From assembly GCF_004959925.1 (NCBI RefSeq), contig NZ_SPUW01000001.1:682001-746000 (forward strand): a stretch of 64,000 nt of DNA, written 5' to 3'. This document shows, piece after piece, positions 6,264 to 6,944 of the stretch. The notes under the pieces are model-generated. The model worked only from the letters and a program-made list of their open reading frames with translations, was not told the DNA's origin and searched no databases. The stretch is from Pseudooceanicola onchidii (lineage in GTDB: Bacteria; Pseudomonadota; Alphaproteobacteria; Rhodobacterales; Rhodobacteraceae). Every line of letters begins with the position of its first letter. Within the stretch, counting starts at the first letter, position 1. The position numbers and the translations under genes were made by a program.

Positions 6264-6308
6264 AAAAAAAGAAAACCGCGACGCCAGGGAGGAGGAGAGG
6301 CGCCGCGG
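6264..6308 (-). terminator. intrinsic terminator formed by the last CcsR-type hairpin
   Basis: On the minus strand a 10-bp stem (CCGCGGCGCC with GGCGUCGCGG) closes the UCUCCUCCUCCCU loop and is followed directly by TTTTCTTTTTTT (plus-strand 6264-6275). The final repeat unit therefore also ends the transcript. Confidence 0.85.
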
Positions 6309-6348
6309 TTCCATTTCACGATGACCCAGGGAGGAGGAGAGGGCCACC
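6264..6348 (-). ncRNA. CcsR/cuckoo-type sRNA, third unit (hairpins 5 and 6)
   Basis: Two hairpins at 6320-6348 and 6276-6308, 42 nt apart by loop starts, each with the 13-nt loop UCUCCUCCUCCCU containing the anti-Shine-Dalgarno CCUCCUCCC. Stems are 8 and 10 bp and differ in sequence from the other units while keeping pairing. The second hairpin is the transcript terminator. In R. sphaeroides, CcsR RNAs of this design are processed from a transcript that begins with a DUF1127 gene and are induced by stress. Here identity rests on motif, structure and synteny. Confidence 0.8.
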
Positions 6349-6366
6349 GATGCTGTTGTGCAGTGT

Positions 6367-6441
6367 CCGGCGACCCCAGGGAGGAGGAGAGGGGCCGCCG
6401 GTCTTGCTATCACCGACCCAGGGAGGAGGAGAGGGCCGGTG
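6367..6441 (-). ncRNA. CcsR/cuckoo-type sRNA, second unit (hairpins 3 and 4)
   Basis: Hairpins at 6411-6441 (9-bp stem, CACCGGCCC with GGGUCGGUG) and 6367-6401 (11-bp stem), loop starts 42 nt apart. Both loops are the identical 13-mer UCUCCUCCUCCCU. A 50-nt step separates this unit from the third one and 73 nt from the first, longer than the step inside a unit, so I treat it as a separate mature RNA released by processing. Confidence 0.78.
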
Positions 6442-6481
6442 CATTCTGTGCGGAGCGTCTTACCCGGCTCCGGGGATTAGT

Positions 6482-6551
6482 GCGGCGACATCAGGGAGGA
6501 GGAGAGATGCCGCCGCTGTTTTCGACCGGCCCAGGGAGGAGGAGAGGGCCG
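6482..6551 (-). ncRNA. CcsR/cuckoo-type sRNA, first unit (hairpins 1 and 2)
   Basis: Starts 14 nt after the DUF1127 stop codon. Hairpins at 6527-6551 (6-bp stem CGGCCC/GGGCCG) and 6482-6516 (11-bp stem with a G-U pair), loop starts 40 nt apart, both with loop UCUCCUCCUCCCU. The close position to the stop codon indicates that the RNA is cut from the 3' part of the DUF1127 mRNA rather than having its own promoter. Confidence 0.78.
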
Positions 6552-6564
6552 TCCGAACTCTGAA

Positions 6565-6783
6565 TTACATGCTCCGGTAGGCTTCTTCGTAAGCCAGGGA
6601 GCGGATCATCGACCGGTGCAGGCCCAGGTCGCGCAGTTCCCGATCCGACAGGCCGGACAGTTCGTCCAGGCACTTGCGGTAGGTCGTGTACTTTGCGTAA
6701 CGCTCGGACAGACCGGTCAGCAGGCGCGTGAAGAAGCCACCGGTGTGGACTGCTGCGCTGCGGGTTTCGATCATCGTTGCCAT
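6565..6783 (-). CDS. ccaF1: DUF1127 small RNA-binding-type protein (CcaF1-like)
   Basis: A 72-residue basic protein with the DUF1127 (YjiS-like) signature at its C-terminus: YRKCLDELSGLSDRELRDLGLHRSMI, followed by an acidic-aromatic end. In R. sphaeroides the equivalent 71-residue protein, encoded just upstream of the CcsR RNAs and co-transcribed with them, binds RNA and influences CcsR maturation; the arrangement here is the same. The ATG at 6783 is chosen because it starts the conserved region and has GAAAGG about 9 bases upstream; a longer frame to 6906 runs through a structured leader and is unlikely. Confidence in the family is high; equivalence to CcaF1 comes from synteny. Confidence 0.88.
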   Translation of the reverse strand: MATMIETRSAAVHTGGFFTRLLTGLSERYAKYTTYRKCLDELSGLSDRELRDLGLHRSMIRSLAYEEAYRSM

Positions 6784-6857
6784 ATCTTCGTACCTTTCGT
6801 CTTCGCTGCTGTATTTGCGTCTGCAGCGATCTGTTGACTTGAATGTACCTTTTTTCT

Positions 6858-6904
6858 GCATCTGCACAATGGAGGATGCTGCAACGCAGCTATGCGGCAG
6901 ATGC
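6858..6904 (-). promoter_or_regulatory. structured 5' leader of the ccaF1-sRNA transcript
   Basis: On the minus strand, GCATCTGC and GCAGATGC (6897-6904 and 6858-6865) form an 8-bp outer stem that encloses a perfect 5-bp hairpin GCTGC-GTT-GCAGC (6878-6890) and an ATCCTCC stretch resembling the array loop motif. It lies between the promoter and the start codon. Confidence 0.5.
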
Positions 6905-6944
6905 ATGATTAAGGGAGGGAATTAAGATATTGAAAGATATTGAT

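Follow-up and report, generated by a model that had tools for sequence, protein, structure and literature searches.

On the minus strand of the 64,000-nucleotide stretch of Pseudooceanicola onchidii DNA analyzed here (the window), six hairpins that expose the same loop follow a gene for a small DUF1127 protein, which raises the question of what this array is, how its expression could be controlled, and on what it could act. We consider it highly probable that the array is part of a chromosomal operon of the ccaF1-CcsR type (CIN1/cuckoo), in the form carried by Pseudooceanicola-like Rhodobacterales, whose stress-induced, LsrB-activated RNAs would silence Shine-Dalgarno (SD) sequences.

The first-pass annotation of this DNA had described six minus-strand hairpins with identical loops, and six copies of TCTCCTCCTCCCT were indeed located there, each with a C-G closing pair (Table 1). 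The loop common to all six hairpins is UCUCCUCCUCCCU, which contains an anti-SD sequence as the annotation had claimed. The 15-mer CTCTCCTCCTCCCTG, made up of the loop plus the pair that closes it, has six copies in the 3.67 Mb genome assembly, all of them within the array, and its reversed control has no occurrence in that assembly. By our own count, the stems of H1 to H6 measure 6+5 bp with one mismatch, 11, 9, 11, 9, and 12 bp; the lengths given earlier (6, 11, 9, 11, 8, and 10 bp) hold for H2 to H4 and had to be corrected for H1, H5, and H6. Five of the six hairpins (H2-H6) feature a G-U pair at stem position 4 or 5, in agreement with the statement that most stems contain one. Folding of the 311-nt array yielded a minimum free energy of -141.4 kcal/mol, in comparison to a shuffle mean of -115.7 (z -5.0, with 0/100 shuffles as good), and all six hairpins are present in that fold.

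Table 1. Features of the array and its upstream region (window positions).
Feature	Position	Strand	Remarks
LsrB-type box TGCA-N6-GCAT (TGCATCTGCCGCAT)	6892..6905	-	122 nt upstream of ATG
VtlR-box-like 15-mer CGCATAGCTGCGTTG	6882..6896	-	differs at 3 positions from the reverse-complemented VtlR motif quoted in PMC12595884
Putative -35 TTGTGC	6864..6869	-	opens conserved stretch TTGTGCA-N3-GCAG
Putative -10 TACATT	6842..6847	-	separated from TTGTGC by 16 nt; weak for this species
DUF1127 small protein gene, 72 aa, CcaF1-like	6565..6783	-	PF06568, E 3.4e-11 on the longer ORF 6906-6565
Six-hairpin array	6274..6557	-	loops of CCUCCUCCC type; basis: sequence, fold, covariation
Hairpins H1-H6	6557-6521, 6516-6482, 6441-6411, 6401-6367, 6349-6319, 6310-6274	-	
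Loops H1-H6	6545-6533, 6505-6493, 6432-6420, 6390-6378, 6340-6328, 6298-6286	-	
CcsR1 matches	6558-6477, 6446-6362, 6353-6270	-	two hairpins each
Two-hairpin units	H1-H2, H3-H4, H5-H6	-	CcsR1 spans
Spacer hairpin CGGAGC/GCTCCG	6451..6472	-	conserved, without anti-SD motif; between units 1 and 2
T-rich tract TTTTCTTTTTTT	6264..6275	-	adjoins H6, whose stem is closed by the first two bases of the tract

Evidence that this structure is selected was obtained from an alignment of six related arrays, namely those of the window, Pseudooceanicola atlanticus, P. batsensis, P. nitratireducens, Primorskyibacter flagellatus, and Pseudooceanicola sp. SP158. Across the alignment, 98.6% of 414 cells are paired, a measure that favors register 0 because the structure was derived from the window sequence, and sliding the register lowered pairing to 26-49%. 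Both sides have changed in 11 of the 69 pairs, against a shuffle mean of 5.0 and with 0/500 shuffles as high, which corroborates the earlier reading of the stems as compensatory and selected. One of the five covariation measures, the number of further pair types, did not rise above the shuffles (294/500 as high). Stem identity is 0.46 among the six hairpins of one array, in comparison to 0.85 for counterpart hairpins across the six species. We conclude that the six hairpins are real, selected RNA structure; the annotation had named unrelated low-complexity sequence as a way in which the loop conservation could be explained, and the covariation contradicts that origin. We also rejected a coding explanation, as the ORFs across the array are mechanical and the compensatory changes in the stems speak for RNA. 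The six pairs of the spacer hairpin are invariant in the six sequences, which provides no covariation evidence for or against its fold; it perhaps has a role in processing.

The PF06568 match bears out the claim that the array lies downstream of a DUF1127 gene. The closest relatives of the encoded protein align from about the ATG at 6783, and its nearest named relatives, in Pseudooceanicola and Primorskyibacter, share 67-71% identity. By similarity to this protein we collected 80 named loci (80 kept of 106), which together with the window make a set of 81 loci that were all chosen by that gene. In 80 of the 81, at least four exact CCTCCTCCC motifs were present no more than 2.1 kb downstream of the matched start. 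The commonest array size is six (30/81 loci) and the largest is 14; a same-genus locus (L021) showed 16 hairpins in a count that demands a stem score of 6, and the two counts differ because the 81-locus count makes no such demand. Among 60 genomes searched for the exact 15-mer, our own included, 26 contained it, and each of the 21 same-genus genomes searched had 3 to 15 copies. The two larger arrays that were examined are tandem duplications of 103-115 nt with 93% matches. For the window array, no tandem repeat of units was found, the only row reported being a 10-nt repeat at 6924-6943. The window array is thus of ordinary size. A run of at least six T in 8 nt follows the last hairpin at 65/81 loci and any earlier hairpin at 6/81, which suggests that H6 probably doubles as an intrinsic terminator, corresponding to the Rho-independent terminator of the ccaF1-CcsR operon. 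A consensus intrinsic-terminator scan, limited to loops of up to 8 nt, reported none.

To which RNA family does the array belong? The annotation had named the CcsR/cuckoo RNAs and proposed a covariance-model search as a check. At gathering scores, Rfam reported nothing for the array. By E-value, CcsR1 (RF02791) gave three matches of 53.1, 44.4, and 42.3 bits (E 2e-12 to 4e-9), the best of which is below the gathering threshold of 65.3, and ar14 (RF02344) gave two matches of 53.4 and 52.9 bits (E up to 5e-9), below its threshold of 58.8. Among 120 family genomes searched, our own included, 99 contained a CcsR1 match, and only 7 contained one at or above the gathering score. The CcsR1 matches, the covariation, and the DUF1127 neighbor together support the family assignment. 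Each CcsR1 match covers two hairpins, which indicates that the array consists of three CcsR-like units. A two-hairpin unit, as in the R. sphaeroides RNA RSs0680a with its two stem loops (PMC3927594), is also apparent in the gap lengths of the 81 loci: of 475 inter-hairpin gaps, 274 measure 46 nt or less and another 187 fall in the range of 47-85 nt. The annotation had called six hairpins an expanded version of the four RNAs of R. sphaeroides. We rejected this claim because it sets hairpins against RNAs, which is the wrong unit; six hairpins amount to three units and are the commonest size. In a separate family genome (G096, locus L108), the array contains seven two-hairpin units, several of them nearly identical, and gave the top CcsR1 score of the 120 family genomes, 106 bits; its seven units compare with the four CcsR RNAs published for R. 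sphaeroides.

Identical loops on variable stems have already been published for cuckoo/CcsR RNAs (PMC3927594, PMC10746234). With adjacent hairpins, CCUCCUCCC loops, and variable stems, and with a position 3' of a small DUF1127 gene on the same strand as at the CIN1 locus, the array is, judged by its sequence, of the cuckoo/CcsR kind in the wide sense of PMC3927594. In R. sphaeroides, the described order is promoter, ccaF1, CcsR1-4, and terminator; an RpoHI/RpoHII promoter drives ccaF1 and CcsR1-4 as one transcript, which RNase E processes, and CcsR levels are influenced by CcaF1, which binds RNA (PMC10253847). The window resembles that locus (CcsR1-4/ccaF1, RSs0680a-d) in that a DUF1127 gene is followed, in the same order and on the same strand, by two-hairpin CCUCCUCCC units and a terminator. 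It differs in featuring three units rather than four published RNAs, in its UCUCCUCCUCCCU loops, which stand in place of the aCCUCCUCCC and cuaUCCUCCUCCCu of the CcsR1 consensus, in scoring under the Rfam gathering threshold, and in its weak RpoH-like -10. With rhizobial ar14/NfeR1 (RF02344), as far as described, the window shares identical anti-SD loops, variable stems, and an LsrB-type box upstream. However, NfeR1 has three hairpins, whereas the window has six behind a DUF1127 gene and an ar14 score of 53.4 against the required 58.8. NfeR1 is reported to silence ntrB through these same loops and to be activated by LsrB (PMC10746234).

We also investigated the region upstream of the operon, where the Rhodobacterales loci share a strongly conserved element within 450 nt of the matched DUF1127 start. 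In 76 loci, which are the 81 minus L037, L054, L055, L075, and L080, for which the scan picked another TTGTGC, TATTTT or TATCTT follows TTGTGC at 16-17 nt in 49. The pattern TTG-N17-19-CYATNT, which we take to approximate the RpoH promoter, fits 46 of these 76 loci and does not fit the window. The pattern TGCA-N6-GCAT, described for the NfeR1 promoter as its LsrB site (PMC10746234), is present in 76/81 DUF1127 upstream regions and in 0/80 full-length control regions; shuffled upstream regions contained it at a mean of 2.2/81 and a maximum of 5 over 20 rounds. It lies about 40 nt before TTGTGC at 57/81 loci and overlaps TTGTGC at 60/81, with both positions occupied at 42/81; the window has the upper box only. 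VtlR is the Brucella name for LsrB (PMC11975290), and a VtlR 15-mer with no more than 3 mismatches was found in 74/81 upstream regions versus 1/80 controls, although this result is not independent of the former because the two motifs share letters. The same 15-mer, at the same stringency, was present at 10/10 CcsR1-hit loci fetched from other family genomes. On its own, it is unspecific in the genome (103 matches with up to 3 mismatches, versus 25 for the reversed control), and the strict VtlR consensus GCAT-N3-TG-N3-T occurs in only 10/81 upstream regions (shuffled mean 3.1).

A box of this kind implies a regulator, and the genome contains 30 HTH_1 matches, two of them in one ORF. The LysR gene L125:763-1686:- matched PDB 9HH1 at 256 bits, with the next match at 112, in a comparison that covered this LysR protein alone. 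Because 9HH1 is Agrobacterium LsrB (PMC11975290), the closest solved relative of this protein is LsrB, clear of other LTTRs. This gene is not located beside trxB in this genome, and so the PDB and the trxB neighbors of other families were used instead. We fetched 30 trxB loci, the best-scoring of 76 genomes, from other alphaproteobacterial families. A LysR-like ORF adjoins trxB in 16 of them, and among the LysR genes of our genome all 16 are closest to L125:763-1686:-, with identities of 44-50% for 14, 36% for one, and 25% for one; for those 14, the next-best full-length matches were about 28-33%. An LsrB-type match (E up to 1e-60) was obtained in 116/120 family genomes, our own included, mostly at 70-84% identity. 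By sequence relationship, LsrB-type genes appear to occur outside Rhizobiales, which disagrees with a 2025 paper in which LsrB, on the basis of a few representative species, is said to appear restricted to Rhizobiales (PMC11975290). Fourteen family genomes encode an LsrB-type protein that is 70% or less identical to the one found here, and 12 of them are without a CcsR1 match; this joint pattern of divergence and absence may reflect phylogeny or co-loss.

The genome contains four DUF1127 genes, i.e., three besides the array-linked one. TGCA-N6-GCAT occurs about 100-122 nt before the start in three of the four, namely the array-linked gene and the genes at L165 and L168, at about 100-110 nt in the latter two, which would place both in the same LsrB-type regulon; it was not found upstream of the L167 gene. 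At up to 3 mismatches, the VtlR 15-mer occurs once, far upstream, at L165 and not at L167 or L168. The L167 gene (1450-2687) is divergent from a LysR gene (L130), with no LsrB/VtlR-like box there. The VtlR/LsrB regulon of Rhizobiales, as described, comprises AbcR sRNAs and DUF1127 genes. The window resembles it in a box close to the published motifs, with a DUF1127 gene and anti-SD sRNAs beneath it, but in the window the protein and the sRNAs would depend on a single promoter, and the LTTR gene lies apart from trxB. The hairpin design of AbcR differs from that of the window array. What is new here is the LsrB-type promoter link, which we propose on the conservation of the box and the presence of the gene; LsrB-type control of a CcsR operon was not found in print among open-licence papers.

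If the box belongs to the sRNAs, copies that stand alone are expected to carry it. Two-hairpin copies without a DUF1127 gene nearby were found at L022, L025, L247, L248, and L250. L022 and L025 showed the box at 1 and 2 mismatches, and no DUF1127-like frame was found in about 3 kb around either of them; the box was not found at L014 and L016. The L022 copy is not independent of the Sulfitobacter and Mameliella plasmids, with which its segment is shared. Of 32 matching plasmid records, 14 were fetched, of which 3 include a DUF1127 gene. In the 400 nt or less before the first hairpin, the best site had at most 2 mismatches in 5 copies, 4 in 3, and at least 5 in 6; in the controls, 1/28 had 2 mismatches or fewer, 2/28 had 3 or fewer, and 7/28 had 4 or fewer, which makes 4 mismatches uninformative alone. 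At L246, the promoter before the DUF1127 gene falls outside the 400-nt stretch and features TGCA-N6-GCAT and TTGTGC. In sum, the 14 plasmid copies comprise 6 with a box, 3 doubtful, and 5 with none. The prediction therefore holds in part: it is true for some of the stand-alone copies, and several others lie downstream of an unrelated gene. The five copies named first, on Rhodobacterales plasmids or contigs, have an LsrB/VtlR-like box and promoter directly upstream and no annotated feature beneath them in the plasmid records. Five other two-hairpin copies on Rhodobacterales plasmids (L240, L241, L243, L244, and L253) have no recognizable box, and all of these except L240 follow a gene on the same strand, as though carried along on its 3' end. 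No viral contig with two such loops was found.

We also searched for candidate targets. The sequence GGGAGGAGG lies 3-10 nt before an ATG at 8 sites in the genome, one of them antisense within the array, and the reversed control gave 0. Others precede genes for a TRAP substrate-binding protein, an acyl-CoA dehydrogenase-like protein, an acyl-CoA ligase (L205), and pdhA (TIGR03182); the remaining sites precede a ligase-looking protein (L203), a 152-aa protein without an NCBIfam match, and a 20-codon frame. The pdhA gene, with a 9-nt perfect loop complement before its start codon, is of interest because CcsR1-4 are described as affecting the pyruvate dehydrogenase complex (PMC8307010). At 30 pdhA loci drawn from 61 genomes, our own included, 18/30 pdhA genes showed at least 7 contiguous loop-complementary letters before the start, versus 5/54 other ORFs at the same loci, in a test weakened by the choice of the best-site start and by the use of unverified control ORFs. 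These data are suggestive only, and pdhA is a candidate target.

From the conserved promoter region, the array, and its likeness to published RNAs, we infer how the operon could work. A stress-responsive promoter, at whose conserved TGCA-N6-GCAT box the LsrB-type LysR regulator probably acts as activator, would yield a transcript that carries the DUF1127 gene followed, within the 3' UTR, by three two-hairpin units, and transcription would end at the sixth hairpin. RNase E, with the DUF1127 protein participating, would cut this transcript into two-hairpin RNAs of about 80 nt, whose exposed UCUCCUCCUCCCU loops would pair with purine-rich SD sequences and thereby silence mRNAs. Several identical loops would provide a higher dose and avidity. 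Candidate targets, in which a perfect 9-nt complement of the loop precedes the start codon, include pdhA, the TRAP transporter gene, and the acyl-CoA genes. Several results count against this reading: the Rfam scores below the gathering thresholds, the weak -10 of this species with its misfit to the RpoH-like pattern, the rarity of the strict VtlR consensus, the single box in the window where 42/81 loci have two, the separation of the LysR gene from trxB, and the five plasmid copies without a recognizable box.

Other explanations have to be weighed against this account. With regard to control, the promoter element could be bound by another LysR-type protein, for which the 30 HTH_1 matches provide candidates, or it could be an extended RpoHI/RpoHII promoter, consistent with such a promoter on the R. 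sphaeroides operon (PMC10253847) and with the fit of TTG-N17-19-CYATNT at 46/76 loci. We regard this possibility as doubtful, because the conserved stretch continues some 40 nt further upstream than the -35 and agrees with the LsrB site described for the NfeR1 promoter (PMC10746234), and because VtlR, as LsrB is named in Brucella, is presented as the primary regulator of DUF1127 genes there (PMC12595884, PMC11975290).

With regard to function, the hairpins could mainly serve the processing, stability, or termination of the DUF1127 mRNA, or form a protein-binding array that titrates CcaF1, with no action in trans. The position of the array behind a DUF1127 gene at 80/81 loci (which were chosen by that gene), the T-run after the last hairpin at 65/81, and the reported binding of RNA by CcaF1 with its effect on CcsR levels (PMC10253847) are all consistent with such a role. 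However, nine invariant anti-SD letters per loop would be superfluous for termination, two-hairpin copies occur without a nearby DUF1127 gene (L022, L025, L247, L248, and L250), and NfeR1 is reported to silence in trans through the same loops (PMC10746234), which together make a purely local role improbable. That the array is functionless low-complexity or repeat-element sequence is scarcely credible: the loop is pyrimidine-rich and the arrays of the two relatives examined contain tandem duplications of 103-115 nt, but the window array lacks a tandem repeat of units, its stems show compensatory changes, it occupies one locus in the genome, and counterpart hairpins are 0.85 identical between species.

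The ccaF1-CcsR-type reading extends to a broader proposal, toward which we lean with less assurance, namely that LsrB/VtlR directly controls DUF1127 genes and anti-SD RNAs in both Rhodobacterales and Rhizobiales. In Rhodobacterales, R. sphaeroides relatives included, it would drive ccaF1-CcsR, typically through two boxes, and the number of units would change quickly by tandem duplication, acting as a dosage dial. If true, LsrB would not be confined to Rhizobiales, and the published R. sphaeroides RpoH promoter would account for one half of the regulation. As for the array, it adds one more medium-sized example to an sRNA family already described, and the spread of array sizes represents a natural dosage series that bears on why many identical anti-SD loops are kept. 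Taken together, one redox-linked LysR regulator would connect the CcsR RNAs of Rhodobacterales with NfeR1, AbcR, and the DUF1127 genes of rhizobia, Agrobacterium, and Brucella.
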